Assembly: GCA_027011725.1 (NCBI GenBank)
Contig: JALUZQ010000233.1
Location: forward strand, 1 to 19,270
Reading direction: 5' to 3'
From: Sulfurimonas sp.
Lineage (GTDB): Bacteria > Campylobacterota > Campylobacteria > Campylobacterales > Sulfurimonadaceae
DNA: 19,270 nucleotides
Positions within the stretch are counted from its first letter, which is position 1. Each line of letters opens with the position of its first letter. The notes below the pieces were generated by a model, which did not search any database, was not told where the DNA came from, and was given only the letters and a program-made list of their open reading frames with translations. The position numbers were made by a program, and so were the translations under genes. Shown here piece after piece: positions 3-14,868 of the stretch.

Positions 3-695
3 GCAGATGAAGCAAAAGCAGGCAAATTTATAAAAAAACAGATAGGGCTTGATTCTTTTGGAAAATATAGTGCTTCTTTATTTAAAGCAGCACTTATTTT
101 AAATAGTTGCTGCACCTTAGAAGGAGTGGTGACATCTGATGGTGTGATAGAAAAAGCGTATTTAGAGCGATTTGTGAATAGAAAAAATGTTTTTTATGGG
201 GATATTGGCATTCGTGTAAAAAATGATAAAAAGGGTTTTGTTATTGTCACTGCTAGTGATCCTTTTATGAAAAACAATCCTTTTAAAAAGGGAGATTGTA
301 TAATATTATACGATGCTAAGAAAACAGGCAACGCTGCAGAGCTTATGCGAAAGATTCTTTTTTCAGATATTGGCTCAAAACATAGTGTAAAGATTAAAAG
401 AGATGCGAAATTTATAACATTTAAGGTAAAAGCTAATGAGAGATATGGCGGTGGTTATCTTAGTGATACTTTTTTAGAACAAAAAGGGATATATTTTGAT
501 AAAACTCTTCATATTACACGCCTTAATGGAAGCTTTAAAAATTATGGCTTAAAAGTCGGTGACAGGCTTAGAGAAGTAAACGCAGTCGCAGTAAATAACC
601 AAGAACAACTGCGTCTGTATATAGAAAAATATAAAGACTACTCTTCATTGCTTTTTGAACGCAATAAGTTCCAATTTTTTGTAAATATTAAGTAG
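3..695 (+). CDS. PDZ-domain-like protein, 5'-truncated by the window edge
   Basis: The reading frame is open from base 3 and ends at the TAG at 693-695, so 230 codons of the C-terminal part are visible and the true start lies upstream. The GTG at 126 is therefore not the start. Two stretches resemble PDZ folds. The first is at visible residues about 66-144 and contains GDIGIRV and a later FKKGDCIILY segment. The second is at about 149-230 and contains GLKVGDRLREVNAVAVNN, the usual PDZ pattern for the turn after the peptide-binding groove. A CC pair precedes the first domain. The position directly before ispA and tkt matches, from memory, the Campylobacter Cj1643-Cj1645 order, where this protein is annotated as putative periplasmic. 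Its molecular role is unknown. No signal peptide can be judged because the N-terminus is missing. Confidence is high that it is a gene and moderate for the PDZ assignment. Confidence 0.85.
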   Translation, partial: ADEAKAGKFIKKQIGLDSFGKYSASLFKAALILNSCCTLEGVVTSDGVIEKAYLERFVNRKNVFYGDIGIRVKNDKKGFVIVTASDPFMKNNPFKKGDCIILYDAKKTGNAAELMRKILFSDIGSKHSVKIKRDAKFITFKVKANERYGGGYLSDTFLEQKGIYFDKTLHITRLNGSFKNYGLKVGDRLREVNAVAVNNQEQLRLYIEKYKDYSSLLFERNKFQFFVNIK

Positions 696-714
696 AAAAA
701 GACTAAAATTTCAC

Positions 715-1560
715 ATGCAAAACTTCGAGCAATTTTTACTAGAAAATTTACCAACATCAAAGAGCATCCATCCCCATTATGAGGATGCCTTGCAAAATAT
801 GCTTAAAGCTGGCGGCAAGCGTTTCCGTCCTGCACTTTTACTGGGTGTTGTTAATGCTTACAACCCTTTAATGCTCGACTCTGCCCGTTACGCTGCCTAT
901 GCGATAGAACTTTTACATACATATTCACTTATTCATGATGATTTGCCTGCCATGGATGACTCTCCACTTCGCCGTGGGAATCCTACTTTACATGTAGTTT
1001 TTGATGAAGTAACTGCTATTTTAGTGGGAGATGCACTAAACACCTATTCATTTGAAGTGCTTTCAAATGCTCCATTCTCAGATGAGACAAGAGTCAAACT
1101 TATAAGAGAACTCGCAACAAATGGCGGTTTAAATGGTATGGTTCTCGGGCAAGCCATTGATTGTTATTTTGAAAACAGACCGCTACAAATCGAAGATATT
1201 AAGATTTTACATACAAATAAAACTGCAAAACTTATAGCCGCTTCACTGAAAATGGGTGCTATAATTGTTGGGCGTGAGGATGTTGCACAAAAACTGTATG
1301 ATTTTGGGATTGATTTAGGGCTGCTCTTTCAAATACAAGATGATATTTTAGATGTGACACAATCAAGCCAAGAAGCTGGTAAACTGACACATAATGATGA
1401 AGACAAAAATAGTTTTGTAACTATTTTGGGTTACGAGCGTGCAATGCAAGAGGCAAATGCTTTAGCACAAAGATTACTACAAGAGATGGATAATTTTGAT
1501 GAGAGTTTACAAAGTGAATTGTCACCTCTATTAACCAAATATATAAACAGACACAAATAA
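715..1560 (+). CDS. ispA: Polyprenyl diphosphate synthase (farnesyl/geranyl type)
   Basis: The 281-residue protein is a trans-prenyltransferase of the IspA type, which condenses isopentenyl diphosphate with allylic diphosphates to make the C15 precursor of quinone side chains and undecaprenyl phosphate in the cytoplasm. Visible motifs are GGKRFRP near residues 33-39 (diphosphate binding), the first Asp-rich motif DDLPAMDD at 75-82 followed by RRGNPT, KTAKLI near 169-174, and the second Asp-rich motif DDILD at 209-213. The HTYSLIHDD context before the first motif, with Tyr-Ser at positions -5/-4, resembles E. coli IspA and suggests short-chain products. The start ATG has no strong ribosome-binding site, and the gene begins 19 nt after the upstream stop, so it may be translated as part of one transcript with the PDZ gene and tkt. 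Exact chain length is inferred, not shown. Confidence 0.95.
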   Translation: MQNFEQFLLENLPTSKSIHPHYEDALQNMLKAGGKRFRPALLLGVVNAYNPLMLDSARYAAYAIELLHTYSLIHDDLPAMDDSPLRRGNPTLHVVFDEVTAILVGDALNTYSFEVLSNAPFSDETRVKLIRELATNGGLNGMVLGQAIDCYFENRPLQIEDIKILHTNKTAKLIAASLKMGAIIVGREDVAQKLYDFGIDLGLLFQIQDDILDVTQSSQEAGKLTHNDEDKNSFVTILGYERAMQEANALAQRLLQEMDNFDESLQSELSPLLTKYINRHK

Positions 1561-1570
1561 ATGAGAAACC

Positions 1571-1647
1571 GACTGCTTAGTGAGCTTTTTTCCGAGGGCA
1601 AATCCTCCCTATGGTCTGAGCCTCTCCAAAAAGCCCACTAAGCAGTC
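1571..1647 (+). promoter_or_regulatory. Long inverted-repeat hairpin in the tkt leader
   Basis: Most of the 108-nt gap between ispA and tkt is one hairpin. Arm 1571-1582 (GACTGCTTAGTG) is perfectly complementary to 1636-1647. After one A/C mismatch, 1584-1590 (GCTTTTT) pairs with 1628-1634. The 37-nt loop (1591-1627) can form a small GAGG/CCTC stem (1594-1597 with 1604-1607). No T-tract follows, so it does not look like an intrinsic terminator. The tkt ribosome-binding site (AAAGGAAG, 1653-1660) lies 5 nt beyond the arm. It could be an RNase III processing site, an mRNA stabiliser, a regulatory leader or a copy of a dispersed repeat. A short 26-codon frame (1561-1641) crosses it. Confidence 0.75.
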
Positions 1648-1668
1648 TACTTAAAGGAAGAAAACAAC

Positions 1669-3591
1669 ATGAAGAATAACGTAATGCGCAAAAAGATGGC
1701 AGACACTATTAGATTTTTAGCAGCCGATATGGTTCAAAAGGCAAATTCAGGCCATCCGGGTGCACCGATGGGACTTGCAGATATTGCGGTTGTTTTAAGT
1801 GAACACTTAAACCACAATCCTAAAAACCCTGCATGGCTTAATCGTGACAGACTTGTATTTTCAGGTGGGCATGCGACAGGGCTTATCTACTCTTTGTACT
1901 ATCTTTGGGGATATGGACTAGAACTTGAAGACTTGAAAGAGTTTCGCCAACTCGATTCAAAAACTCCGGGACATCCTGAGTATGGACATACTGCAGGCAT
2001 AGAAATCACAACAGGACCACTTGGTCAAGGTGTGGCAAACGCAGTTGGTTTTTCTATGGCTTCAAAATTTACTGGGGCCCAAGTAAACTCCGATACAGCT
2101 GATTTAATTGATCATAATGTTTACTGTTTATGTGGTGATGGTGACCTTGAAGAAGGACTCTCTTATGAAGCATGTTCTATTGCAGGACATAACAAACTTG
2201 ATAATTTAATCTTGATTTATGATTCAAATCGTATTACCATCGAGGGAACAACTGATTTGAGTATTAGTGAGAACATTACAGAGAGATTTGAAGCGCAAGG
2301 CTGGGATGTTTTAGAGTGTGATGGTCATGATTATGATGATATTGATGCGACACTTACAACTGCAAAAGCAAATACAAGACCGACACTTATTATTGCCAAT
2401 ACTATTATTGCAAAAGGTGCTGGAAAATTAGAAGGTTCTCATCATGCTCATGGTGCACCACTTGGTGAAGAGGTAATTGCTGAAGGGAAAAAAGCGGTAG
2501 GATTTGATCCTGAGAAAAAATTCTTTGTTGATGATGATGTACTTGCACGATTCAGATGTGCTGTTGAAGAGGGCGATTTACTAGAGCGTGAGTGGATTCA
2601 CAGACAAAAGACAGTGCCGTTAATGGAACAAAATGAGGCATTAAAAGCACTCGAAAATCCTGATTTTTCAAGAATCCAGTGGCCAGAGTTTGATAAAGCC
2701 GATGCAACAAGAAATACAAATGGAAAAATCTTAAACGCAATCGCGCGTGCAGTGCCAAGTTTCTTGGGTGGCTCAGCTGACCTTTCTCCGTCGAACAAAA
2801 CTTACCTCAATGACATGGGAACATATCCAAAAGGGCGTAATATCTACTTTGGTATTCGTGAACATGCTATGGCTTCCATTGCAAACGCAATGGCTCTTTA
2901 TGGACCATTGAAACCATTTACATCTACGTTCTTTGTCTTCTCAGACTACCTCAAACCTGCAACGCGTATTGCCGCACTTGCAGGTATTCAACAGTTCTTT
3001 GTATGGACACATGACAGCATCGGTGTAGGAGAAGATGGACCAACACATCAACCAATAGAACACCTTTCACAGTTTCGTGCACTTCCTAATTTTTATGTAT
3101 GGCGTCCAGCTGATGGTGCTGAAAATGTAGAGGCGTGGAAAACAGCGCTTGAGATGAGTAAATCTCCATCTGCATTTGTATGTTCTCGTCAATCTTTGGC
3201 ACTCCTTCCAAAGGCGGTTAAAGGTGAAGCATCTCGTGGTGGATACCTCCTTGCAAGTGATGCAAACGCAGTCATCACACTTATGGCATCAGGAAGTGAA
3301 GTAGAACTAGCACTTAAAACAAAAGAGGCACTGAATGAAAAAGGTGTTCCTGCTAATGTTGTAAGTGTTCCATGTTATGACCTTTTCATAGAGCAAGAGC
3401 AATCTTACATTGATGAAATGATTATTCCTGATACGAAAAAAGTAGCCATAGAAGCTGCACGAGGACTTGAGTGGTACCGTTTTGCAGATGAAGTAATAGG
3501 TATGGACACTTTTGGTGCATCAGCACCTGCTGGACAACTCTTTGAAAAATTCGGCTTTACTGTTGATGCTATTTTAGAGAGAATTAAATAA
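1669..3591 (+). CDS. tkt: Transketolase
   Basis: The 640-residue protein is a full-length transketolase, a ThDP- and Mg-dependent enzyme that moves two-carbon ketol units between sugar phosphates in the non-oxidative pentose phosphate pathway; in an autotroph it would mainly supply ribose and erythrose phosphates. Visible motifs are SGHPGAPMG (27-35), GGHATG (66-71), the ThDP-binding GDGDLEEG at 156-163 with the metal-ligand Asn in DSNR (185-188), the His-rich SHHAHGAPLG (257-266) and the catalytic Glu in FGIREHA (E398). The ATG at 1669 has a good AAAGGAAG ribosome-binding site 8 nt upstream. The gene follows ispA, probably in one transcript, and ends within a bidirectional terminator hairpin. 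Length and motif content are typical of the family. Confidence 0.98.
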   Translation: MKNNVMRKKMADTIRFLAADMVQKANSGHPGAPMGLADIAVVLSEHLNHNPKNPAWLNRDRLVFSGGHATGLIYSLYYLWGYGLELEDLKEFRQLDSKTPGHPEYGHTAGIEITTGPLGQGVANAVGFSMASKFTGAQVNSDTADLIDHNVYCLCGDGDLEEGLSYEACSIAGHNKLDNLILIYDSNRITIEGTTDLSISENITERFEAQGWDVLECDGHDYDDIDATLTTAKANTRPTLIIANTIIAKGAGKLEGSHHAHGAPLGEEVIAEGKKAVGFDPEKKFFVDDDVLARFRCAVEEGDLLEREWIHRQKTVPLMEQNEALKALENPDFSRIQWPEFDKADATRNTNGKILNAIARAVPSFLGGSADLSPSNKTYLNDMGTYPKGRNIYFGIREHAMASIANAMALYGPLKPFTSTFFVFSDYLKPATRIAALAGIQQFFVWTHDSIGVGEDGPTHQPIEHLSQFRALPNFYVWRPADGAENVEAWKTALEMSKSPSAFVCSRQSLALLPKAVKGEASRGGYLLASDANAVITLMASGSEVELALKTKEALNEKGVPANVVSVPCYDLFIEQEQSYIDEMIIPDTKKVAIEAARGLEWYRFADEVIGMDTFGASAPAGQLFEKFGFTVDAILERIK

Positions 3592-3614
3592 AAAGAGGCT
3601 TATTAGCCTCTTTT
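3591..3614. terminator. Bidirectional intrinsic terminator between tkt and the SagB-like gene
   Basis: AAAAGAGGCT (3591-3600), the 4-nt loop TATT and AGCCTCTTTT (3605-3614) form a perfect 10-bp stem, with A-tract and T-tract built into the arms so that it can act on both strands. On the minus strand the T-run continues into TTTTTATTT. The stop codon of the minus-strand gene (3603-3605) lies in the loop, and the last base of the tkt stop is the first base of the stem. Confidence 0.9.
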
Positions 3615-5162
3615 GTATGCTTGCTGCGTTTGGATGCGATTGTCTATATATCCCCGTCCAACTGTAAAATGGTAGAGTGACTGATAGCTGTTATTTTTCA
3701 TCCCTAATATCCGTTTATGCACTAAATCATCTAAAAAACAGCCTATTCCTGTTCCTGAAAGCCCAAGTGATGTTGCTTCAAGATAGAGTTGTTGTCCTAT
3801 GGCTCCACACTCCCAGTAGAGCTCTTTGTACCTGTGAGCATCACACTCTAAAAGCTCCTCTGCGTATCTGCAGAGCATTCCAAATGAGAAGGCTCCGTCA
3901 CTTGCTATGGCTTGATTGCAGCTGATGATTTTTGAGGCTTCTGTGTAGTCTGCTATTTCGAGCAGGTAGAGGTTTTTATATGATGTCATTTGCCATAAAA
4001 AATCTTCTTTGAACTCTTTTTGCAGCTCATGTAGAGCAGATTCTTCTCTCACAAGTATGTAAAGCCCTTGTTTGTACTCGGCTACGCGATGGACAAACAA
4101 AAGTAGATGCGCTACGTTTACTCTGCCATCTTGTGAACATGTCGCTGCGTTTAGAAGGGTGTGAAACTGCTCTGCTGAGATATGTGACTTCTCTTTATCC
4201 ATCACATGAATACTTCTGCGTTTGAGTATGACCTCTTTTGCCTCCTTGGTAGGTTCTCGTTTGACTCTGCACGCTTGATGGATAAGCGGCAGAGCTTTTG
4301 AGCGCTCAGATGTAGCAGCTGCAACACGAGGAATAATCTCCCATTCATGCATTGAGGGGCTGAGTTTGTTTGCTATGCCCTCATATTGCTGTGGCAAATC
4401 TTCCAAGAGTGATGTGAAGTCGTGTAAAGGATTACACGACTCTTTCGAGACAATAAAAAGCATATCTGCTATCTCATCTTCAAAAAAGCGCTCTTTTTGA
4501 GAGAGCCCAAAAAGTTTTTCTATCTCTGCTTCACTGAGTGAGTCTATGCGGGTAAGCTTCCATCCTAAGAGTTTTGCTGAAACTGTAAGAGCATTGTATG
4601 CGTGTCCTGCATCGAGCTGCGTGTAGCGAAAAGCACGCTCGCCATATTTCCAAGCCTCCCTCCATGGGATGCTTGAGAGTCCAAGTAAAAAGCTCTTTTG
4701 TGGTAAACTTTGCCAAAAATCAGTATTAAACGCAGCGAGTTGTTCAAAAGTGTGCTCTTTTGGAGCGTAGTGCATAACAGTGCTTTGCTCATTTTCCATC
4801 ATTGGAGGTAAAACAAGATAGCTCTCAGTCGGATGCAGGTTTCCACTTGAAGCGTTACAACGCACAGCCCACGTACTGCCGCCTGAACTTTTCCATGCGG
4901 CAATGCCGAGTGAGAACTGCAGGAGTTGCGAGAGTGACTCTTTGAGCAGGGGTGCAACTGGAAGCTCTTCATCGAGCAGTGAGTAGGGTGGAGTGGGGTT
5001 TTCAAGCGCGATAGGAAGTACTATCTGCTTTGCACCTTTGTACTCCCGAAAAGGGTCAGGCTGTGTTGCCCAGTCCATATAGCCAAGTGATTTTGCATAT
5101 CTTTGGTGTGAGTGTTTTGTGCGTTCATGGTAATCAAATACGATTTGTAGGTTTTTATTCAT
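3603..5162 (-). CDS. SagB/nitroreductase-family flavoprotein with two nitroreductase-like domains
   Basis: The 519-residue protein has two nitroreductase-like halves. The N-terminal half carries RCNASSGNLHPTESYLV at 101-117, the signature of SagB/ThcOx-type dehydrogenases (FMN-dependent, some of which oxidise azolines to azoles in peptide natural products), and a conserved AFRYTQLDAGHAYN segment at 177-190. The second half begins near residue 312 with LKRRSIHVMD and ends with a GQQLYLEATSLGLSGTG-type segment. Standard nitroreductases are about 200 aa, so this is a tandem or duplicated form, as is common for SagB-like proteins in environmental bacteria. No azole-peptide precursor, cyclodehydratase or transporter is next to it, so a role in peptide modification is not supported; substrate and partner are unknown. 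It is divergent from selO (99 nt apart), has no obvious Shine-Dalgarno, and looks more GC-rich than its neighbours. Confidence 0.85.
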   Translation of the reverse strand: MNKNLQIVFDYHERTKHSHQRYAKSLGYMDWATQPDPFREYKGAKQIVLPIALENPTPPYSLLDEELPVAPLLKESLSQLLQFSLGIAAWKSSGGSTWAVRCNASSGNLHPTESYLVLPPMMENEQSTVMHYAPKEHTFEQLAAFNTDFWQSLPQKSFLLGLSSIPWREAWKYGERAFRYTQLDAGHAYNALTVSAKLLGWKLTRIDSLSEAEIEKLFGLSQKERFFEDEIADMLFIVSKESCNPLHDFTSLLEDLPQQYEGIANKLSPSMHEWEIIPRVAAATSERSKALPLIHQACRVKREPTKEAKEVILKRRSIHVMDKEKSHISAEQFHTLLNAATCSQDGRVNVAHLLLFVHRVAEYKQGLYILVREESALHELQKEFKEDFLWQMTSYKNLYLLEIADYTEASKIISCNQAIASDGAFSFGMLCRYAEELLECDAHRYKELYWECGAIGQQLYLEATSLGLSGTGIGCFLDDLVHKRILGMKNNSYQSLYHFTVGRGYIDNRIQTQQAYKRG

Positions 5163-5261
5163 AGCTTTAGTGTAATCTTTTTTTCTTAAAAGTTTTTAGA
5201 AGAATTTGACTTAGTTTTTCAAAGTAGCTCTTTTTAATGCAAGAGTTGATAAAAGTAGCCT

Positions 5262-6701
5262 ATGAAATTTTCTGATTTAAAACTAACAACACCCTACCTT
5301 TCGCTTTCGCCGCTCTTTTATGACATGGCAGAACCTCTGCCACTTGAAAAGCCATTTCTTATAGCAGCTTCACAAGATGCAGCAAAACTTTTAGGGGTGG
5401 ATGAAAATCTCTATAGTGATGCAAGACTACTCTCTCTAGTAAATGCACAAACGCAGCTTGAGAACTCTCATTTCTTCTCAATGTGTTATGCTGGACACCA
5501 ATTTGGCTATTTTGTAGAGCGCTTAGGTGATGGACGTGCCATCAATCTTGGCAAGGTAAATGGGCAAAATCTACAGCTTAAAGGTGCAGGTTTGACACTC
5601 TATTCACGTCAAGGCGATGGCAGGGCAGAACTACGCTCAAGTATACGTGAGTTTTTGATGAGTGAGGCGATGTACGGTCTTGGCATTGAGACTTCACGTG
5701 CTTTAGCGCTTATTGGGAGTGAGACAAAAGTTGCACGTGAGCGCTGGGAGAGTGGGGCAATAGTGCTGCGTTTATCTCCTACGTGGGTACGTTTTGGAAC
5801 TTTTGAGTATTTTTATGCAAAAGGGGAATATGACAAACTCCAGGAGCTTGCCGATTATGTAATAGCCGAGTCATTTCCTGAACTTGAAAATGAAGAGGGA
5901 CGTTACCTGAAAATGTATGCTAAAGTCGTGGGAAACACTGCGCGAACTGTAGCAAAATGGCAGACTTATGGTTTTAATCATGGGGTGATGAATACAGATA
6001 ATATGTCCATAGACGGCAGAACCATCGACTATGGTCCTTTTGCATTTTTGGATGATTATGATGCGAACTACATCTGTAACCACACCGATGTCGAAGGGCG
6101 CTACAGCTTTAAAAATCAGCCGGGTATTGCGAAGTGGAATTTGGCACAGTTGGCACGTGCGCTTTCTCCTATTGTCTCTCATGAAGGTTCTTTGCTTGTG
6201 CTTGATGAGATGTTTACAGCTGTATATGAGCGAGAATATTGTTCATTGATGTATGGACGTATGGGGCTTTTTGAAGCTGATGCAGAAGATGTAAAACTGA
6301 TGGAGTGGATGTTGGGAGCTTTAGAGAGTTCTGTCATAGACTACAACGGTTTTTTCCGTAAATTCTCACGATATGATGGAGATAAATCATCCATACTTGA
6401 TAGCTGCGTTTACAGAGCGCCGCTAGATGAATGGTTCGATGCTTATACACTGCGTTTAGAAAAAGAGAAGCTGAGTCAAACGCAGCGAGAGCAAAAAATG
6501 TTGCAAAATAATCCAAAATACATTCTTAGGAATCATCTGCTCCAAGAGGCGATAGTTAAGGCTGAGCGTGGAGAGTTTGAGATGGTGCAAGAGCTTTTGA
6601 AAGTGGCACTTTCACCATTTGAAGAGCATAAGGAGTTGGAGCATTTGACAAAACCGACGCCTGAGTATGCAAAAAATAGAAAACTCAGCTGCTCCTCTTA
6701 G
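5262..6701 (+). CDS. selO: SelO/YdiU family protein adenylyltransferase
   Basis: The 479-residue protein belongs to the SelO (YdiU) pseudokinase family, which transfers AMP from ATP to protein hydroxyl groups and has been linked to redox homeostasis. Visible motifs are CYAGHQFGYFVERLGDGRA (75-93), the ATP-site QLKGAG (105-110) with its Lys, RQGDGRAELRSSIREFL (116-132), the NTDN segment with catalytic-type Asp246, and the DYGPF segment with metal-ligand-type Asp256. The C-terminus ends Cys-Ser-Ser, as in bacterial SelO; in eukaryotes this Cys is selenocysteine, and here it is encoded by an ordinary Cys codon. Length is typical. The gene diverges from the SagB-like gene, and its stop codon overlaps the stop of the convergent permease by 2 nt. 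Substrates are not predictable from sequence. Confidence 0.95.
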   Translation: MKFSDLKLTTPYLSLSPLFYDMAEPLPLEKPFLIAASQDAAKLLGVDENLYSDARLLSLVNAQTQLENSHFFSMCYAGHQFGYFVERLGDGRAINLGKVNGQNLQLKGAGLTLYSRQGDGRAELRSSIREFLMSEAMYGLGIETSRALALIGSETKVARERWESGAIVLRLSPTWVRFGTFEYFYAKGEYDKLQELADYVIAESFPELENEEGRYLKMYAKVVGNTARTVAKWQTYGFNHGVMNTDNMSIDGRTIDYGPFAFLDDYDANYICNHTDVEGRYSFKNQPGIAKWNLAQLARALSPIVSHEGSLLVLDEMFTAVYEREYCSLMYGRMGLFEADAEDVKLMEWMLGALESSVIDYNGFFRKFSRYDGDKSSILDSCVYRAPLDEWFDAYTLRLEKEKLSQTQREQKMLQNNPKYILRNHLLQEAIVKAERGEFEMVQELLKVALSPFEEHKELEHLTKPTPEYAKNRKLSCSS

Positions 6702-7606
6702 AGGAAGCTAAGGAGTTTTACACCTACAAAGATAACACCTAAAAAGAGCAGGGATGTTATAAATACGAGAGCTGTGACTATTTTTGGTTCGCAATCATAA
6801 AGCGAAGAGAGATTTACATTTGCGATTGCTAAAGGTGTAAGTAGCTCTATAAATATAATTCCTTTTATCATACTATCAAGTTCTAAAAATGAGAGAACTA
6901 CAAAAGCAAGAGTAGGTAAAAGTAAAAACTTAAAGCTTATGACCCAGCTAATGAGCGTTCTATTAATTTCACGAACTTTTGTTCCATAAAGATAGATACC
7001 AAATAAAATCAGTTGCATAGTAATAGAGGCATATGCTCCCATCATAAGCATATCCATTATTGCTTTATTTGGACGATACCCATAGAGACTTAATCCTATT
7101 GCAATAAGTGCAGCCCAGAGTATAGGAAGCTTTAAAACATTTTTTAGTGATTCTGTTACACTAAAAGTACCTCGTGAGTAAAAATAGACGCCAATAGTAT
7201 AGACAACAAAAATGTTCATTAAATTGACTATGGTTGTGTATGGAATGGAGGCTTCTCCAAAGATAGCGATATTGAGAGGGATACCAAGATTTGCTGTATT
7301 GCCAATGAGTGCTGCAACTACAGCTATGGAGTGCTCTTTTTTCTCATGAAAGAACTTTTTTGCAAAAAGAGCTGAGAATATAAGGGCGATAAGAATAATA
7401 ATGAGATAGACAAAGGGTGCATAAAAGAGCGTTATGTCTATAGGACGCAGTAATAGTCCCCAAAAGGTTAAAAAAACCTGCAAGAAGTAGACATTTAAAA
7501 GCGTAATTGTTTTGTCATCTATCTGTTCTTTAAAGGAACGTTTGGCTATGTAACCGATAATAATAAAAAGGTAAATACTAAAAATACTAAAAATTATTGA
7601 ACTCAT
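6698..7606 (-). CDS. AEC (auxin efflux carrier)-family permease
   Basis: The 302-residue protein is almost entirely hydrophobic, with about nine or ten membrane segments, and contains GNTANLGIP at 102-110, a conserved AEC/PIN-type motif with an Asn and Pro in a broken helix. Family members export or exchange small organic acids such as malate, but the substrate cannot be inferred. I placed the start at the ATG 7604-7606 (MSSIIF...), which begins directly with the first membrane helix. A longer frame from 7648 would put a polar stretch in front and overlap the start of the divergent thioredoxin gene. The ATG lies 7 nt after a TATAAT box and has no Shine-Dalgarno, suggesting a leaderless message. 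The stop overlaps that of selO. Confidence 0.88.
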   Translation of the reverse strand: MSSIIFSIFSIYLFIIIGYIAKRSFKEQIDDKTITLLNVYFLQVFLTFWGLLLRPIDITLFYAPFVYLIIILIALIFSALFAKKFFHEKKEHSIAVVAALIGNTANLGIPLNIAIFGEASIPYTTIVNLMNIFVVYTIGVYFYSRGTFSVTESLKNVLKLPILWAALIAIGLSLYGYRPNKAIMDMLMMGAYASITMQLILFGIYLYGTKVREINRTLISWVISFKFLLLPTLAFVVLSFLELDSMIKGIIFIELLTPLAIANVNLSSLYDCEPKIVTALVFITSLLFLGVIFVGVKLLSFL

Positions 7607-7612
7607 AATGCA

Positions 7613-7627
7613 ATTATACTGTATAAT
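7613..7627. promoter_or_regulatory. Palindromic divergent promoter: two back-to-back -10 boxes
   Basis: ATTATACTGTATAAT is a perfect inverted repeat with 7-bp arms around a central T (7620). It gives TATAAT on the + strand (7622-7627) and TATAAT on the - strand (7618-7613). Both ATGs (7634 + and 7606 -) begin exactly 7 nt beyond their box, where transcription would normally start, and neither has a Shine-Dalgarno. The two promoters cannot easily be occupied together, and a repressor could also use the palindrome. The promoter reading is an inference from the sequence; no -35 is obvious. Confidence 0.65.
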
Positions 7628-7633
7628 TTCACT

Positions 7634-7954
7634 ATGAATAGAATCCAAGAGATAGAAAAAACAGTAAAAGAAAATTTGGCGGTGATGCTTTACTTTTCAG
7701 CACCAACTTGTAATGTCTGCCATGCACTTAAGCCAAAACTGCTTGAGGCGATAGAGACGAACTTTAAAGAGTTTAAAATCATAAGTGTAGATACATCGCT
7801 AGAGCAGGAAATAGCAGCACACTACAGTGTTTTTGCTATTCCTACGGTGCTTGTCTTTTTAGACGGTAGAGAGTTCTTACGTAAATCTCGTCATATGAGT
7901 GTTGATGAGGTAGTACGCGCTATACAACGTCCTTATGAGATTATGCTCTCATAA
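7634..7954 (+). CDS. Small thioredoxin-like protein
   Basis: The 106-residue protein has a thioredoxin fold pattern: the active-site CxxC is APTCNVC with Cys26 and Cys29, followed by the cis-Pro motif AIPT (Pro70), then VLVFLDGRE. The CNVC centre differs from the canonical CGPC, so redox potential and partners may differ from housekeeping thioredoxin. No signal peptide is present, so it should act in the cytoplasm on disulfides. The ATG at 7634 is 7 nt after a TATAAT box with no Shine-Dalgarno, which suggests a leaderless transcript. It is divergent from the AEC permease and converges on the methyltransferase gene, with only 3 nt between stop codons. A specific reductant and target are not shown. 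Confidence 0.9.
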   Translation: MNRIQEIEKTVKENLAVMLYFSAPTCNVCHALKPKLLEAIETNFKEFKIISVDTSLEQEIAAHYSVFAIPTVLVFLDGREFLRKSRHMSVDEVVRAIQRPYEIMLS

Positions 7955-7957
7955 AGA

Positions 7958-8707
7958 TTAGCACTTAAACGCAATGAGTGCAGCCGTGATTGCAACATTG
8001 AGTGACTCTACATCCCTTTGCATTGGAATGATGAGTTTTTTGTTACAGAGTACAGCAACTTCTTCGCTGACACCTTCACTCTCATTTCCTAAAACATAAA
8101 TAGATTTCTTTTTTTCTTTTACATTGTAAATGCTCTCATCTGCTTCTAACGAAAGAGCATATATATCTGTTTCGTGCAGATCTTTGAGTACATCTTCAAG
8201 TTTGTCACAAAAGTAGATAGGAAGTTTAAAGAGTGTACCTGCACTTGCTTTAACGACAAGTGGAGAGATCTTTGCAGAGTTCTTTTTTGGTAGAATAATT
8301 CCATCTACATTGCCTGCAGCACATGAACGGATAATCATTCCTAGATTTTGTGGATTGTGAATGCCATCAAGAGCTATAATACGAAAAGAGCTGAGTTCTT
8401 TAAGCTTTGCTGCGTTTAGGTAGCTCTTGGAGATGATGTCTATGGCAACACCCTGATCTTGTTTGGCGTTTTTAGAGATGCGCGAGAGAGCATTTTTTTC
8501 GTGATGGGTAATTTCTATATTTCTCTCTTTTGCTAAACGCAGTATCTTTTTAATAGCACCGTCTGGCTTGTTTGAACTTGCCATATGGAGCTTGTGAATT
8601 TCTATAGAGTTGTCTTGGAGCATCTCTATAACGACATTACGCCCATAAAGGGTAATAATTTTCTCAAAAAAGGCTTTTTTCTCTTTGTACTCTTGTGAAT
8701 CTTGCAT
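7958..8707 (-). CDS. SpoU/TrmH-family RNA 2'-O-methyltransferase (RlmB-like)
   Basis: The 249-residue protein carries all three SpoU motifs: NPQNLGMIIR (118-127), LGNESEGV (206-213) and the C-terminal PMQRDVESLNVA (228-239), which form the SAM-binding trefoil knot. The N-terminal region with LYGRNVVIEML (20-30) matches the SpoU substrate-binding domain, as in RlmB, which methylates the 2'-O of G2251 in 23S rRNA. Whether this one acts on 23S rRNA or on tRNA cannot be decided from sequence. The start ATG has a good AGGAGAAG site within the end of yaaA, and the genes are 8 nt apart, so yaaA and this gene form an operon. Confidence 0.93.
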   Translation of the reverse strand: MQDSQEYKEKKAFFEKIITLYGRNVVIEMLQDNSIEIHKLHMASSNKPDGAIKKILRLAKERNIEITHHEKNALSRISKNAKQDQGVAIDIISKSYLNAAKLKELSSFRIIALDGIHNPQNLGMIIRSCAAGNVDGIILPKKNSAKISPLVVKASAGTLFKLPIYFCDKLEDVLKDLHETDIYALSLEADESIYNVKEKKKSIYVLGNESEGVSEEVAVLCNKKLIIPMQRDVESLNVAITAALIAFKC

Positions 8708-8715
8708 ATCTTCTC

Positions 8716-9444
8716 CTACTCTACTATGTTATAAACTATTTCAGTTTTGTTTTTTATCACTTTTATCTCAGCGACACTGAGTCCTTCAATCTCAAGTTGC
8801 ATAAAGGTTTCCATGCTCTCAATGTTATGTTTCGCTATTTCACGCAACACTATACCTCTATAGGCTTTTGCCCAGTGACTCACTGTTTTTCCATTTTTTA
8901 AAAACTTGAGTGTAGTATAGGCTTTTGTGCTTTTGTAAAATTTATCATAATACCCAGCACGCAAATCAAGCACTTCATGTGCGCTAAGGTAAAGATCTAT
9001 TTGGTAAGAGAAACGTTCTTTGTAAAATTTTTCCGGTGCAATATCTCCTATAGTATTGCCTTGTTTAACTTTATAGTTCGCAATTGGGTCTCCCCCAAGG
9101 AGTGGTCCATAAAGATTAGAGAAGATAAGTGTATTCTCCTGTAAAAACTTTTGTGCCTTAGCATCAAGCTCTTTGTATTTGAGATAATCATAGGCTACAC
9201 CTTGATAACGCTCAATTGCAGGCATAAGAGAAGAGTTGAAAATATCGCAGATGTAAGCTTCACATTCACTAAACTTTTTAAAGCCAAAGAGTTTTTTTAT
9301 TGCCTCTTCATCTTGTGAAAGCACAATATCATTATAGGTATGGAGTATTTTATCTCTGGCACTGAGCGCTCCAAATATATCTTTTTTTGCAGTATTTCCA
9401 CCGCTGTTTTTTCCTTCAGACGGAGAGAAGAGGATTTTTAACAT
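8716..9444 (-). CDS. yaaA: YaaA (UPF0246/DUF328) family peroxide-stress protein
   Basis: The 242-residue protein starts MLKILFSPSEGK, the family's N-terminal signature (E. coli YaaA has a similar LISPAK-type start). It also carries LYGPLLGGDPIANYK near 111-125 and VSHWAKAYRGIVLREIA near 188-204, which match other conserved blocks of the family. In E. coli, YaaA belongs to the OxyR regulon and lowers free iron and Fenton damage during peroxide stress; it also binds DNA. Whether that holds here is inference. The ATG has an AAAGGAT site and a TATAAT box (9476-9471 on the minus strand) about 27 nt upstream. It is the first gene of the yaaA-methyltransferase pair. Confidence 0.9.
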   Translation of the reverse strand: MLKILFSPSEGKNSGGNTAKKDIFGALSARDKILHTYNDIVLSQDEEAIKKLFGFKKFSECEAYICDIFNSSLMPAIERYQGVAYDYLKYKELDAKAQKFLQENTLIFSNLYGPLLGGDPIANYKVKQGNTIGDIAPEKFYKERFSYQIDLYLSAHEVLDLRAGYYDKFYKSTKAYTTLKFLKNGKTVSHWAKAYRGIVLREIAKHNIESMETFMQLEIEGLSVAEIKVIKNKTEIVYNIVE

Positions 9445-9470
9445 ATATATCCTTTATAAAATCTAGGAGA

Positions 9471-9476
9471 ATTATA
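9471..9476 (-). promoter_or_regulatory. -10 box upstream of yaaA
   Basis: The + strand ATTATA reads TATAAT on the minus strand, about 27 nt before the yaaA ATG, leaving a leader of roughly 20 nt with the AAAGGAT ribosome-binding site. No good -35 is visible, which is common for sigma-70 promoters in Campylobacterota. Confidence 0.5.
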
Positions 9477-9568
9477 ACTGTTTTATGGATAGAAAAGCCT
9501 TGATGCAGGCTTATAAAGCATCAAAAATGAGAAATTTAAAAGAAATCTCATATTTTTTCTAAAAACCC

Positions 9569-9597
9569 TTGACATTGAATTTCTTTTGCACTATAAT
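9569..9597 (+). promoter_or_regulatory. Consensus sigma-70 promoter of the tRNA-tuf cluster
   Basis: TTGACA (9569-9574), a 17-nt spacer and TATAAT (9592-9597) match the sigma-70 consensus at every position, with the -10 box ending 17 nt before the first tRNA. Such a perfect -35 stands out against the other promoters in this window, which show only a -10. It should give strong transcription of the tRNA genes and perhaps read into tuf. Confidence 0.9.
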
Positions 9598-9614
9598 TCT
9601 GGCTCAAATTCGAT

Positions 9615-9691
9615 GCCGACATAGCTCAGTTGGCTAGAGCAGCTGATTTGTAATCAGCAGGCCCGGGGTTCAAATCCTCGTGTCGGCACCA
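9615..9691 (+). tRNA. tRNA-Thr (TGT)
   Basis: The cloverleaf is complete: acceptor GCCGACA/TGTCGGC, anticodon stem GCTGA/TCAGC with loop TTTGTAA, and T-arm loop GTTCAAATC. The anticodon TGT is at 9649-9651. CCA is encoded. It is the first gene of the cluster, in the place of E. coli thrU. Confidence 0.97.
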
Positions 9692-9753
9692 TTGAATTTT
9701 GAATATTAGAAACAGTGTTAGACCAGAAAAGACATTTTTAAAATGTATTAAGT

Positions 9754-9838
9754 GGTGGGATAGTCAAGTGGCCAACGACGGCAGACTGTAAATCTGCTCC
9801 CTATGGGTTCAGAGGTTCGACTCCTCTTCCCACCACCA
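9754..9838 (+). tRNA. tRNA-Tyr (GTA)
   Basis: Acceptor GGTGGGA/TCCCACC, anticodon stem GCAGA/TCTGC with loop CTGTAAA, anticodon GTA at 9788-9790. The long variable arm gives 85 nt, as expected for a class II tRNA. CCA is encoded. A perfect 15-bp AT-rich inverted repeat (9732-9746) lies just upstream and may help processing. Confidence 0.97.
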
Positions 9839-9848
9839 CCAATGACAC

Positions 9849-9924
<76 letters not shown>

Positions 9925-9950
9925 TTGAACAAAACTTCTGGAAGCTGAAG

Positions 9951-9956
9951 TATAAT
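9951..9956 (+). promoter_or_regulatory. Candidate internal -10 box in the tRNA cluster
   Basis: A TATAAT lies in the 163-nt gap between tRNA-Gly and tRNA-Thr(GGT). An upstream TTGAAC (9925-9930) is 20 nt away, too far for a good -35. If used, it would transcribe about 120 nt before tRNA-Thr(GGT). Apart from a seven-codon frame starting near 9997, the gap shows no gene. Confidence 0.45.
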
Positions 9957-10087
9957 TTCGTCTTACTTCATACAACTACAAATAGAGATTTTATAAATGT
10001 CAAAATGTAGTATCTAATCACAACTAATATTTATCGGTATAAAAACAAAAGAATCATGCAGTGATTTCTTAATATTTATTTCGCTGT

Positions 10088-10162
<75 letters not shown>

Positions 10163-10210
10163 TATATACTATATTTAATAAATTTAAGAAATAATTGAAT
10201 GATTTTTGGG

Positions 10211-10216
10211 TATAAT
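10211..10216 (+). promoter_or_regulatory. tuf promoter -10 box
   Basis: The TATAAT is preceded by the T-rich GATTTTTGGG, a typical Campylobacterota sigma-70 arrangement without a -35. Transcription would start near 10223, giving a leader of about 29 nt that contains the CGGAGG ribosome-binding site. Confidence 0.75.
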
Positions 10217-10251
10217 TCCATTTCAATTCACAATTAAAGTCGGAGGACACT

Positions 10252-11451
10252 ATGGCAAAAGAAAAGTTTGAACGTAATAAACCGCATGTTAACATTGGTA
10301 CTATTGGACACGTTGACCACGGTAAAACTACACTAACAGCAGCAATCACTGCAGTACTTGCAGTAAAAAATGAAGCACAATTTATGGACTATGACCAAAT
10401 TGATAATGCTCCAGAAGAAAGAGAGCGTGGTATTACTATCGCTACTTCACATGTTGAGTATGAAACTGACAAACGTCACTATGCACACGTTGACTGTCCA
10501 GGTCACGCGGATTATGTTAAAAACATGATTACTGGTGCTGCACAAATGGATGGTGCTATTCTTGTTGTTTCTGCAGCGGATGGCCCGATGCCACAAACAC
10601 GTGAGCACATTCTTCTTTCTAAGCAAGTTGGTGTTCCTTATATCGTTGTTTTCATGAACAAAGAAGACATGGTTGATGATGAAGAACTACTTGAACTAGT
10701 AGAGATGGAAATCCGTGAACTACTAGATATGTATGACTTCCCAGGTGATGACACTCCTATCACTGCAGGTTCTGCATTAAAAGCTCTTGAAGAAGCTAAA
10801 GCTGGTGCTCTTGGTGAGTGGTCAGATAAAATTATTGCACTTATGGACACTGTTGATGAGTGGATTCCTGAACCAGAACGTGAAACTGACAAAGATTTCT
10901 TGATGCCAGTTGAAGATGTGTTCTCAATTTCTGGACGTGGTACTGTTGTAACAGGTCGTATCGAGCGTGGTATTGTTAAGGTTGGTGACGAAGTCGAAAT
11001 CGTAGGTATCAAAGATACTCAAAAAACAACTGTAACTGGTGTTGAAATGTTCCGTAAAGAAATGGAGCAAGGTGAAGCTGGTGATAACTGTGGTATCCTT
11101 ATTCGTGGTATCGCTAAAGATCAAGTTGAGCGTGGTCAAGTACTATGTAAGCCGGGTTCAATCACTCCACACACTAAATTTACTGCAGAAATCTATGTTC
11201 TAAGTAAAGATGAGGGTGGTCGTCATACTCCATTCTTCAATGGTTACCGTCCACAATTCTATGTACGTACTACAGACGTTACAGGTGCAATCACTTTACC
11301 AGAAGGTACTGAGATGGTTATGCCAGGTGATAACGTAAGTATTACTGCTGAATTAATTCACCCAATTGCAATGGAAAAAGGTACTAACTTCGCTATCCGT
11401 GAGGGTGGTAGAACTGTTGGTGCTGGTGTTGTTGCAGAGATTCTTGCATAA
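10252..11451 (+). CDS. tuf: Elongation factor Tu
   Basis: The 399-residue protein delivers aminoacyl-tRNA to the ribosome as a GTPase. The P-loop GHVDHGKT (19-26), switch I RGITI (59-63), DCPGH (81-85) and NKED (136-139) are all present, followed by the two beta-barrel domains. The start is fixed by CGGAGG 6 nt upstream. Codons are strongly biased to GGT, CGT, GCT and AAA, as expected of a very highly expressed gene. It has its own -10 box, follows tRNA-Thr(GGT), and is followed by a UUCG-capped hairpin and rpmG. It is the only tuf in the window; whether the genome has another is unknown. Confidence 0.99.
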
Positions 11452-11470
11452 TTCGCTTCGGCGAATATGC
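11446..11470 (+). other. UUCG-capped hairpin at the end of tuf
   Basis: ATTCGC (11451-11456), the loop TTCG (11457-11460) and GCGAAT (11461-11466) form a perfect stem, extended beyond one bulged A by GCAT/ATGC. It starts within the tuf stop region. No T-run follows, so it is more likely a transcript-stabilising or processing element than a full terminator, setting tuf mRNA apart from rpmG. Confidence 0.6.
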
Positions 11471-11495
11471 AAAATCCTTTAAAAGGTAAAATATA

Positions 11496-11648
11496 ATGAG
11501 AGAAGCAATTCACTTAGGTTGTGAGAAATGTACTAGACGTAACTATCACACAACTAAAAACAAAAAGACTCACACTGAGAAATTTTCAGTACGTAAATAC
11601 TGTAAATGGTGTAAAGAGCACACAATTCATAAAGAGATGAAACTGTAG
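11496..11648 (+). CDS. rpmG: Ribosomal protein L33 (zinc-binding form)
   Basis: The 50-residue protein of the large ribosomal subunit has two CxxC pairs, CEKC (Cys9, Cys12) and CKWC (Cys36, Cys39), which bind zinc in the C+ form of L33. Most of the remaining residues are basic. The ATG at 11496 has an AAAAGG site about 10 nt upstream. The gene lies between tuf and tRNA-Trp, the usual place in many bacteria where L33 is not paired with L28. It is too short for a typical ORF cutoff and was found by reading the tuf-secE gap. Confidence 0.96.
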   Translation: MREAIHLGCEKCTRRNYHTTKNKKTHTEKFSVRKYCKWCKEHTIHKEMKL

Positions 11649-11667
11649 TAACAGTTTCTCTCCATTT

Positions 11668-11743
11668 AGGCGTATAGCTCCAATGGTAGAGCACCGGATT
11701 CCAAATCCGGGTGTTGGGAGTTCGAGTCTCTCTACGCCTGCCA
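11668..11743 (+). tRNA. tRNA-Trp (CCA)
   Basis: Acceptor AGGCGTA/TACGCCT, anticodon stem CCGGA/TCCGG with loop TTCCAAA, anticodon CCA at 11701-11703, discriminator G, and an encoded 3' CCA. It sits between rpmG and secE, as in many bacteria. Confidence 0.97.
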
Positions 11744-11814
11744 CACATTTTTTATCAGTAAAGCATAGAATGCTCTATTTATAAGAGATGATAGATTAAA
11801 ATATGGAAAATTAG

Positions 11815-11994
11815 ATGGACTTAAGTAAACACATTCGTAATGCTAAATTAGAATTAAGCAAGGTTATCTTCCCAACAAAAGGGCAGGTTAAACAAGCTTA
11901 TATTGCAGTTGTAATCGTTGTATCTGCAATAGCAGCATTTTTAGCATTGGTAGATTTACTTATGTCATCAATCATGTCAGCAATTTTAGGTTAA
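11815..11994 (+). CDS. secE: Preprotein translocase subunit SecE
   Basis: The 59-residue protein is the short form of SecE, with an amphipathic N-terminal part (KLELSKVIFPTKGQVKQA) and one membrane helix at about 29-50. It clamps SecY in the SecYEG channel. E. coli SecE has two additional helices; the single-helix form is usual in Campylobacterota. An ATG at 11803 runs into a stop after three codons, so 11815 is the only sensible start, although its Shine-Dalgarno is weak. The stop TAA (11992-11994) overlaps the AAGGAG ribosome-binding site of nusG, so the two are cotranscribed and perhaps translationally coupled. Confidence 0.95.
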   Translation: MDLSKHIRNAKLELSKVIFPTKGQVKQAYIAVVIVVSAIAAFLALVDLLMSSIMSAILG

Positions 11995-12004
11995 GGAGTT
12001 AGTT

Positions 12005-12532
12005 ATGGCACATCAATGGTACTCTATTCAGACCTATGGAAGCGACAGAACTGTAAGAGATGCAATCTTCAACATGATAGAAGAGTTTGGTCTTCAAGAT
12101 CAGATTACAGACGTTATTGTCCCAACTGAAGACGTTATTGAAGTAAAAGATGGTAAAAAGAAAGTAAGTGAGCGATCACTCTACTCGGGATATGTATTTG
12201 CAAGAATTGATCTCAATACTGAGATTCAGCATATGATACAATCGATTCCGAAAGTTTCTGGATTTATCGGTGAAGGAAATGTTCCAACACCTTTAAGTGA
12301 GCATGATATCAATGTTATACTTGATCGTGTAAATAATCGTGCAGCACCGAAACCAAAAGTATTTTTTGATAATGGTGAGACTGTACGTATTATTGATGGA
12401 CCTTTCGCGAACTTTACTGCGACTGTAGATGAGTACGATTTAGAACATGGTACTTTAAAACTCAATGTTTCGATTTTTGGAAGAGCAACACCTGTTGATA
12501 TCTCTTATACTCAAGTCGAAAAAATAATTTAA
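12005..12532 (+). CDS. nusG: Transcription termination/antitermination factor NusG
   Basis: The 175-residue protein has the NGN domain starting QWYSIQTYGSDR near residue 4 and a C-terminal KOW domain at about 122-175 with GETVRIIDGPFANFTATVDE-type sequence. NusG binds RNA polymerase between the beta' clamp and beta, and links it to Rho or to ribosomal S10. AAGGAG, formed by the end of secE, lies about 6 nt before the ATG. rplK follows after 20 nt with its own ribosome-binding site. Confidence 0.98.
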   Translation: MAHQWYSIQTYGSDRTVRDAIFNMIEEFGLQDQITDVIVPTEDVIEVKDGKKKVSERSLYSGYVFARIDLNTEIQHMIQSIPKVSGFIGEGNVPTPLSEHDINVILDRVNNRAAPKPKVFFDNGETVRIIDGPFANFTATVDEYDLEHGTLKLNVSIFGRATPVDISYTQVEKII

Positions 12533-12552
12533 ATTCATAAAAAGGAAAGATA

Positions 12553-12978
12553 ATGGCAAAAAAAGTCATGGATTATATCAAGCTACAAATCGAAGCTGGT
12601 AAAGCAAACCCTGCACCACCGGTAGGACCAGCACTAGGACAACGTGGTGTTAACATCATGGAATTCTGTAAAGCATTTAATGAAAAAACTAAAGATAAAA
12701 TGGGATTCAAAGTTCCTGTTGTAATTACAGTTTATAATGATAGAAGTTTCTCTTTTATCACAAAACAACCACCTGCATCTGAACTATTGATGAAAGCTGC
12801 TGGACTTAAAAAAGGTACAGATAACCCTCTTAAAAATAAAGTTGGTTCAATTACTCGTGCTCAATTAATGGAAGTTGTTGATGCTAAAATTGAGGATTTA
12901 AATACTGACGATAAAGAAGCTGCTGCTAATACTTTAGCTGGTTCTGCTCGTTCAATCGGTATCGAAATCAAAGACTAA
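12553..12978 (+). CDS. rplK: Ribosomal protein L11
   Basis: The 141-residue protein binds the GTPase-associated centre of 23S rRNA. The N-terminal proline-rich [13 protein letters not shown] (20-32) is the thiostrepton-proximal signature, and the C-terminal RNA-binding domain ends ...[11 protein letters not shown]. Length is typical. It is separated from rplA by 68 nt that can form small alternative hairpins. Confidence 0.98.
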
Positions 12979-13046
12979 TTTAGAGAACAGATCACCGACC
13001 ACAGTGATGTAAAACTTTGTGGCAGAATTAATATGGAGAATTTGTA

Positions 13047-13739
13047 ATGAGCAAAAGATATAAACAATTATTAGAAAAAATTGATAACACAAAAGCTTAT
13101 GGTGTTGAAGAGGCTTCTTCAACAGTAAAAGAGCTTAAAAGTGCAAAATTTGACGAAACTGTTGAAATTGCAATGAATTTAAATGTAGACCCTCGTCACG
13201 CTGACCAAATGGTTCGTGGTGCTGTTGTTCTTCCTCACGGAACTGGTAAGACTGTTCGTGTTGCAGTATTTGCTAAAGGTGCTAAAGCTGATGAAGCAAA
13301 AGCAGCTGGTGCAGACATCGTTGGTACTGATGATTTAGTTGCACAAATCAAAGAGGGAATCTTCAACTTTGATGTTGTTGTTGCTGCTCCTGATTGTATG
13401 GGACTTGTTGGTCAAATCGGTCGTATCTTAGGGCCAAAAGGTTTAATGCCTAACCCTAAAACTGGTACGGTAACTCCAGATGTTGCTACTGCAGTTAACA
13501 ATGTTAAAGGTGGTCAAGTTAACTTTAGAGTTGACAAAAAAGGTAACATTCACGCTGGTATCGGTAAAGCAAGTTTTGAAGCGAACCAAATCAAAGAAAA
13601 CTTAGAAGCTTTCCTTGTTGCTATCAATAAGCAAAAACCTGCATCTGCAAAAGGTCGTTATATTAAAAACGCTGCTCTTAGTTTAACTATGAGTCCAGCT
13701 GTAAAACTTGACGTTATCGAATTAGCAGACATCAAGTAA
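13047..13739 (+). CDS. rplA: Ribosomal protein L1
   Basis: The 230-residue protein forms the mobile L1 stalk that helps release E-site tRNA. The conserved [15 protein letters not shown] (129-143) lies in domain II, and the [19 protein letters not shown] region (156-174) is typical. In many bacteria L1 also represses its own mRNA by binding a leader that mimics its 23S site. Here the 68-nt rplK-rplA gap contains possible small hairpins, but I cannot match them firmly to the L1 site. GGAG lies 11 nt before the ATG. Confidence 0.98.
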
Positions 13740-13745
13740 CTATTT

Positions 13746-13768
13746 AAAAGTGCCTTTATGGTGCTTTT
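13746..13768 (+). terminator. Terminator-like hairpin after rplA
   Basis: AAAAGTGCC (13746-13754) pairs with GGTGCTTTT (13760-13768) through nine pairs, two of them G-U, around the loop TTTAT. GAAAGTTTTTATTTT follows, a T-rich but imperfect tract. An 18-bp perfect palindrome, TTTTATTTTAAAATAAAA, lies next to it (13775-13792). Together they probably end or attenuate rplKA transcripts before the L10 leader. Confidence 0.55.
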
Positions 13769-13839
13769 GAAAGTTTTTATTTTAAAATAAAACTATTTTA
13801 AAGTAAAGATTTTCAATTATTTGGGAATCTGAATTACTT

Positions 13840-13920
13840 GGACTAAAGATAGACGGGGGTTTCTACTATGTAAGTAGTAAGCTTAATCGGCCTTTCCCGC
13901 CCCTCTTGAAGTTATGTCTG
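13840..13920 (+). promoter_or_regulatory. L10 leader (ribosomal protein autoregulatory RNA)
   Basis: The 200-nt gap before rplJ holds a structured RNA resembling the L10 leader. AGACGGGGG (13851-13859) faces CCCGCCCC (13897-13904). Between them is a variable hairpin, CTACT/AGTAG (13863-13867 with 13873-13877), followed by AAGCTTAATC, the conserved CTTAAT element of such leaders. AGAC and GTCT (13916-13919) can close the base. In known cases L10(L12)4 binds this RNA and represses rplJL. The AAAGGAG site follows at 13923-13929. Exact boundaries are approximate. Confidence 0.75.
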
Positions 13921-13935
13921 AGAAAGGAGAACTAT

Positions 13936-14418: not shown

Positions 14419-14482
14419 CAGCTTGTTCTAACGTGGCATAAGTCACACAAAAAAATAAAATAAAAATAGAGGAGCTTATATT

Positions 14483-14854: not shown

Positions 14855-14863
14855 TAACTTCTA
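14841..14863 (+). other. Hairpin over the rplL stop codon
   Basis: TAGAAGTTA (14841-14849) and TAACTTCTA (14855-14863) form a perfect 9-bp stem, with the stop TAG (14852-14854) in the 5-nt loop. It is the first of six hairpins before rpoB. Confidence 0.7.
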
Positions 14864-14868
14864 CACCG

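Follow-up and report, generated by a model that had tools for sequence, protein, structure and literature searches.

Sequence-tagged uptake of DNA is described for the Pasteurellaceae and the Neisseriaceae (PMC7811141). The DNA uptake sequence (DUS) of the Neisseriaceae is a short word present in about a thousand copies or more (PMC3630211); related species use dialects that differ around a shared core, and the tree of a minor pilin, ComP, follows the dialect (PMC3630211, PMC3868556). The uptake signal sequence (USS) of the Pasteurellaceae is evenly distributed, scarce in strongly constrained genes and accounted for by molecular drive (PMC7811141). In Legionella and other Gammaproteobacteria, a role in DNA uptake has been proposed for FimT, a minor pilin encoded by an orphan gene and having the GspH/FimU/FimT fold (PMC8897410). 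Campylobacter jejuni, which belongs to the same phylum as the present organism, restricts uptake to DNA that carries methylation at its motif (PMC10046745, PMC8468864), and Cj0683, which precedes priA, is essential there for efficient DNA uptake (PMC10046745). Here we consider the octamer AAACGCAG, which recurs in a stretch of 19,270 nucleotides from Sulfurimonas sp. (contig JALUZQ010000233.1 of assembly GCA_027011725.1; hereafter the window, meaning that whole stretch). Judged from sequence comparisons, AAACGCAG, in its wider form YAAACGCAGYG, is probably a DNA uptake sequence of this Sulfurimonas species and one dialect of a set of self-DNA tags that are spread through genomes of the genus; the whole is best read as a case of uptake-sequence dialects within the Campylobacterota, for which a FimT-like pilin is the candidate receptor. 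We know of no group other than the two named families with sequence-tagged uptake, and uptake sequences in Sulfurimonas were not found in a literature search that covered best-ranked titles, subscription journals and preprints being outside its scope.

The word resembles the DUS in its copy number and in having dialects among related species, and the candidate receptor resembles ComP in being a minor pilin whose tree appears to follow the dialect. By contrast with the Neisseriaceae, the words are unrelated, belong to another phylum and differ more widely between dialects, there is no intergenic excess and there are few close inverted pairs, and the candidate is a pilin of the GspH/FimT type, not ComP. 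With the USS, whose sequence is unrelated, the word shares its even spread, its rarity in genes under strong constraint and molecular drive as the proposed explanation. USS lie mostly in coding sequence and have flanking preferences, as does AAACGCAG; we know of no receptor for them, whereas a candidate is named here. Like Legionella FimT, the Sulfurimonas candidate is an orphan minor pilin gene with the GspH/FimU/FimT fold. No arginine-rich GRxR tail was recognised in it by eye, a sequence search gave no pilin match beyond the N-terminal helix, and, unlike FimT, it is linked to a sequence dialect. With C. jejuni, the phylum and discrimination of self DNA at the first uptake step would be shared, and Cj0683 has positional counterparts in the pilins adjacent to priA; there, however, a short, degenerate, methylated motif (RAATTY) is concerned, and here an exact over-represented word. 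HIP1 of cyanobacteria, a highly iterated short palindrome of debated function, is likewise a short iterated word. AAACGCAG, by contrast, is not palindromic, and words switch among close relatives, which we do not know of for HIP1.

Abundance, context and orientation of AAACGCAG

The preliminary description had reported fourteen copies in the window, seven in each orientation and nine of them between 3624 and 6485, all of which were recovered by exact matching (Table 1). Its composition-based expectation of about 0.2 copies was too low, dinucleotide-preserving shuffles of the window giving a mean of 0.66 and a maximum of 4 (n = 200), never 14. The genome-wide count that it had proposed as a check came out far above expectation: the assembly that holds the window as contig 233 (G000; 1,416,224 bases, 67.6% complete) contains 1,087 copies (521 forward, 566 reverse), against 29 (10 forward, 19 reverse) of a mirrored control, the word read backwards. 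When 20 contigs of this assembly were sampled together with the window (177,196 bases; 189,868 with the comEC contig), AAACGCAG was indeed the top 8-mer by z-score in the smaller sample, with 153 copies observed and 6.7 expected under a second-order Markov model, an enrichment of about 23-fold. Copies are dispersed at about 0.8-0.9 per kb, in the preferred context YAAACGCAGYG, with which the previously noted recurring core GCTGCGTTTA agrees. Genome-wide enrichment far above Markov and codon expectation, and dispersal in both orientations without strand polarity, are features that AAACGCAG shares with DUS and USS.

Codon, amino-acid or mutation bias, or a dispersed mobile repeat, might produce a recurrent word that has no function, and the frames giving Asn-Ala and Ala-Phe/Leu were indeed favoured. 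Nevertheless, all six frames were occupied, although unevenly (13, 21, 56, 18, 44 and 4 sites, the four belonging to the rare Cys-Val frame), in line with the earlier remark that several frames are used. Predicted open frames make up 92.3% of the 189,868 bases and hold 156 of the 168 sites, 12 being fully intergenic; shuffling of synonymous codons left only 16.1 coding copies on average and at most 27 in 200 rounds, so that codon or protein bias, as had been argued from the window alone, does not explain the excess. One-mismatch neighbours were 0.2- to 2.4-fold enriched, except AAACGCAA (3.6-fold; 46 observed, 12.7 expected), and mirrored controls were low. Base preference was strong only up to about three bases from the core and faint at -6 and -8, which indicates that AAACGCAG is not carried by a longer repeat. 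Given the shuffles, frames, neighbours and controls, we take bias or a mobile repeat as the sole cause to be refuted, and an origin of this kind without function is hardly credible.

A binding site for a nucleoid, replication or recombination protein that needs many copies, in the manner of Chi, KOPS (FtsK-orienting polar sequences) or Noc sites, would be in line with the high copy number and even spread of the word. Spacing is near exponential (mean 822, coefficient of variation 1.03), and in none of 22 stretches was the density far from average (lowest tail 0.043, highest 0.031). Against a Chi or KOPS motif, however, stands the balanced orientation without local runs: neighbouring sites in the 177 kb sample form 60 same-strand and 72 opposite-strand pairs, a test of neighbours and not of whole replichores, so that local polarity is absent, and the totals for the genome are balanced too. 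The argument from orientation made for the window alone therefore holds, AAACGCAG lacking the strand bias of Chi and KOPS both among neighbours and in genome totals. The long gaps over constrained operons also speak against a nucleoid site. The right half of the window, over the tRNA, tuf and rpo genes, was said to be empty and indeed holds no copy; it is the longest motif-free stretch in the 189,868 bases, followed by a ribosomal-protein operon with SecY and then by sox genes, both of which begin at a contig end. Constraint on these genes, suggested earlier as codon bias, is consistent with the position of the second stretch, and the gaps fit loss by purifying selection, as described for USS. 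Terminators made of inverted pairs were ruled out by the small number of close inverted pairs and the lack of an intergenic excess.

Dialects among relatives and retention of sites

Counts of AAACGCAG covered 200 family genomes from 18 genera and 298 genomes from a phylum search, all of which belong to the same order (58 genera). Outside the genus labelled g1, no genome of these two sets, read by eye, had at least 50 copies and more than three times the mirrored control. Within g1 the excess was patchy and confined, among the genomes counted, to some species, with 1,822 copies in G071, 1,698 in G097, 2,331 in G141, 1,344 in G146, 1,450 in G166, 1,207 in G171, 1,367 in G487, 856 in G478 and 651 in G473; others were also enriched, and a set of genomes was intermediate.

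Other species carry other words in its place. Among 80 named transketolase loci, we found CTCACGCA (including S. indica NW8N, L062), AAACGCCA (including the symbiont of Alviniconcha boucheti), AAACGCGA, CCACATGC and TACATGTA, with ACTTCACCG and AGCATCTA as less certain cases. In 135 genomes of the genus, counts over the whole genome confirmed three of these words, all roughly strand-balanced: CTCACGCA with 621-962 copies in seven genomes, CCACATGC with 272-1,564 in fifteen, and AAACGCCA with up to 693. By our thresholds, 32 of the 135 genomes belong to an AAACGC group, seven to a CTCACGCA group and fifteen to a CCACATGC group, with no genome in two; genomes first labelled weak D1 proved on re-examination to carry mixed AAACGCnn words. 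A word shared within clades and replaced by dialects in relatives was thus found, with 81 of the 135 genomes falling in none of the three groups; some of these 81 carry TACATGTA or a weaker word. Samples of 13-40 kb from 29 genomes mostly gave no clear word; such samples miss real words, since G019 showed none in 18 kb and yet holds 693 copies of AAACGCCA genome-wide. A transketolase tree, read by eye and lacking support values, shows AAACGCAG at two or three unconnected positions and TACATGTA at four.

The retention of sites in orthologous DNA was in line with biased uptake. Stretches of the assembly's own genome were aligned to relatives' DNA, with octamers of the same letters as controls; the pairs compared are not independent. 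In 23 loci with the same strong word, sites were kept in 8/9 cases at 94% identity or more, 10/14 at 85-94%, 16/28 at 77-85% and 19/52 below 77%, against 102/122, 60/105, 49/319 and 41/461 for the controls in the same order. By contrast, 140 loci without an AAACGC word kept 0/2, 1/31 and 4/404 sites (controls 34/62, 141/611 and 469/4,296), and relatives with other AAACGC words were intermediate (1/2, 4/12 and 14/130). The difference between sites and controls is small at high identity and large at low identity, a pattern which indicates that sites are acquired and retained mainly where the dialect operates. At orthologous sites, evolution by point mutation was observed, as was persistence where the putative uptake bias would act.

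This variation also bears on two rivals. The word might be a methyltransferase target of which uptake reads the methyl mark, as in C. jejuni (CtsM, RAATTY), in which case it would still be a self tag, and the precedent within the phylum speaks for this. RAATTY is, however, short and degenerate, the words here differ between species, and a methyl mark alone should give no drive toward one exact 8-mer unless uptake were biased; we therefore consider this account unlikely. Of the uptake, methyltransferase and nucleoid-site options first put forward, a plain methylation target fails to explain the excess and the switching of words, and uptake is favoured by the dialects, the retention, the lack of polarity, the ComEC and pilus genes and the pilin that tracks the dialect. 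For the chromosome-protein site, words that vary among related species, many relatives having none, would be unusual for a core protein, even though CCACATGC and TACATGTA, with their quasi-palindromic form and the A/T positions that flank them, look like dimer sites; on balance such a site is improbable for AAACGCAG. Unlike the AAACGC words, CCACATGC and TACATGTA might have a dimer as reader or represent another sort of site. In the loci concerned (L050, L053, L058, L069 and L115; L049, L077, L082, L089 and L091), A and T stand about 8.5-9.5 bases from the centre.

Three further observations concern single genomes or loci. In G001, of the CTCACGCA type, AAACGCAG is strand-skewed (111 forward, 30 reverse) and is perhaps carried by a repeat array. 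AGCGCGCTG is enriched in the single locus L117, and TGCGATCGCA, which we take to resemble the HIP1 core, in L106, both from metagenome-assembled genomes (MAGs) of Sulfurimonadaceae/Helicobacteraceae.

Competence genes and a FimT-like candidate receptor

The machinery that uptake requires is widespread. ComEC was found in 123 of the 135 genomes of the genus, in 78 of the 79 good ones and in the assembly holding the window. Pilin-type N-termini and T2SSE-family ATPases occurred in all 18 genomes searched; 17 of them, all but the incomplete G000, had a frame about as long as PilB (580-596 aa; in G146, 518 aa), and most had frames about as long as PilT, both names resting on length. Of 40 loci examined, 34 yielded priA, and in 31 of these it is preceded by one to three pilins, about 7-13 kb from comEC. 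ComEC, T2SSE-family ATPases and pilins before priA were thus all present. Since competence genes occur with and without a dialect, they indicate capacity only. A single TGA lies within the ComEC match in each of two genomes of the CTCACGCA type (G001:C1:254710-255462 and G148:C74:7242-7985), the G001 frame having 361 aa and that of G000 427; competence may have been lost in G001 and G148, although the word remains.

In both closed genomes that were checked, an orphan gene for a FimT/GspH-like minor pilin lies immediately upstream of the 16S rRNA of an rRNA operon. Its product has a prepilin N-terminus and the GspH/FimU/FimT fold, matching EpsH/FimU/FimT in fold comparison; ComP was absent among the matches listed, which excludes nothing. 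GRP is invariant in its interior, and no GRxR was seen by eye in the C-terminal tail. This pilin tracked the dialect better than neighbouring genes did, in small tests. With ComEC alone as background, both FimT and the control PriA scored 1/5,000 for the dialect label; as the control scored like FimT, this test was too weak and was repeated with six proteins (15 genomes, the label of G176 being later revised and residual phylogeny partly remaining). FimT then reached 7/5,000 for the core class, against 412 for PriA. These FimT tests used the earlier labels; G019, G176 and G198 were later matched, provisionally and by contig position, to named loci with other words. A prediction fixed beforehand held for three of three positive and five of six negative genomes. 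In line with exchange between lineages, the pilin of G171 groups with that of G097, while the neighbours of G171 in the gene tree are G053 and G117.

From a mechanistic point of view, a minor pilin on a type IV pilus would bind the word on outside DNA, the pilus would draw word-bearing DNA in and ComEC would pass one strand onward; recombination of the preferentially imported word-bearing alleles would then let the word accumulate by molecular drive. That the reader is the orphan FimT/GspH-family pilin is a less certain step. Its role as sequence-reading receptor, moving between lineages with the dialect, is suggested by the comparisons above, less firmly than the uptake function itself. The full proposal, with at least four and perhaps eight uptake dialects in Sulfurimonas, read by this pilin from upstream of the rRNA operon and exchanged with it between lineages, could in our judgement equally prove right or wrong.

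Several results weigh against the uptake reading and its candidate receptor. None of the Foldseek matches of the candidate reached E 0.001. Covariation with the dialect label in the six-protein test was modest (FimT 96/5,000, PriA 219, PgbA 476). No full-length FimT-like match was found in 15 of the 32 AAACGC-family genomes, including the incomplete G000, and the drafts G039, G031 and G105, which do bear a dialect, gave none either; some genomes without a match, such as G119 and G146, are rated 99% complete. Five of the top 22 FimT matches (G198, G163, G152, G064, G093) lie outside the AAACGC family. G486, predicted negative, was enriched (176 against 30) and belongs to the AAACGC family by the later threshold; judged on AAACGCAG only, G488 seemed negative (39 against 8). 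The quasi-palindromic CCACATGC and TACATGTA may be another kind of site, 81 genomes remain ungrouped, and ComEC and pilus genes do not discriminate between genomes with and without a dialect.

Other candidates were set aside. Hsp70 rows for the candidate pilin (E 0.019 and above) were weak and taken as chance. For the priA-adjacent pilins, residual covariation with the dialect was not significant (p 0.26 for b, 0.86 for a and 0.83 for c), and retests of b gave 446/5,000 with the ComEC background and 1,596 and 1,304/5,000 with six proteins. A four-pilin cluster was rejected as being a type II secretion cluster with GspG, GspF, GspD, GspE and a PDZ protein; it occurs in many of the 18 genomes (L239, L251), its pilins not being found in G001 and G095.

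If true, the uptake reading would extend sequence-tagged uptake to another phylum, in a genus that has several dialects and for which a candidate receptor can be named. The full proposal, if right, would mean that transformation in this chemosynthetic genus has a self-recognition code of separate evolutionary origin. Such a system would offer a natural experiment on the co-evolution of receptor and word and on the sufficiency of molecular drive, and the dialect map would predict which species can exchange genes. To our knowledge, the genetics of Sulfurimonas is little developed; adding the right word to donor DNA is a suggested route to its transformation.

Genes and features of the window

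By protein comparison, the window encodes a farnesyl diphosphate synthase-like protein besides the transketolase, SagB-like dehydrogenase, SelO and RlmB-like methyltransferase genes in which most copies lie (Table 1).

Table 1. Copies of AAACGCAG and other features located in the window (ORF, open reading frame)
Feature	Position	Strand	Remarks
AAACGCAG copy 1	578..585	+	exact match; ORF 126-695, weak below-cut-off PDZ/Do-protease-like match
AAACGCAG copy 2	2037..2044	+	exact match; inside transketolase 1669-3591
AAACGCAG copy 3	3264..3271	+	exact match; inside transketolase 1669-3591
AAACGCAG copy 4	3624..3631	-	exact match; inside SagB-like ORF 3603-5162, minus strand
AAACGCAG copy 5	4145..4152	-	exact match; inside SagB-like ORF 3603-5162, minus strand
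AAACGCAG copy 6	4216..4223	-	exact match; inside SagB-like ORF 3603-5162, minus strand
AAACGCAG copy 7	4728..4735	+	exact match; antisense within SagB-like ORF
AAACGCAG copy 8	5449..5456	+	exact match; inside SelO/YdiU ORF 5262-6701
AAACGCAG copy 9	5766..5773	-	exact match; antisense within SelO ORF
AAACGCAG copy 10	6404..6411	-	exact match; antisense within SelO ORF
AAACGCAG copy 11	6450..6457	-	exact match; antisense within SelO ORF
AAACGCAG copy 12	6478..6485	+	exact match; inside SelO ORF
AAACGCAG copy 13	8410..8417	-	exact match; inside RlmB-like ORF 7958-8707, minus strand
AAACGCAG copy 14	8535..8542	+	exact match; antisense within RlmB-like ORF
Motif-free stretch	8543..19270	.	five tRNA genes, EF-Tu, NusG, L11, L1, L10, L7/L12, RpoB
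Inverted repeat	1571..1647		arms of 27 bases each, 85% complementary, with a 23-base spacer; located between the genes for prenyl transferase and transketolase

The transketolase is 100% identical over 640 residues to that of a Sulfurimonas MAG (L044), a match by which the window was placed in this genus. Two further transketolase contigs, 94% and 85% identical to that of the window (L046 and L057), both come from the MAG JALVXQ, which indicates that this bin is probably mixed.

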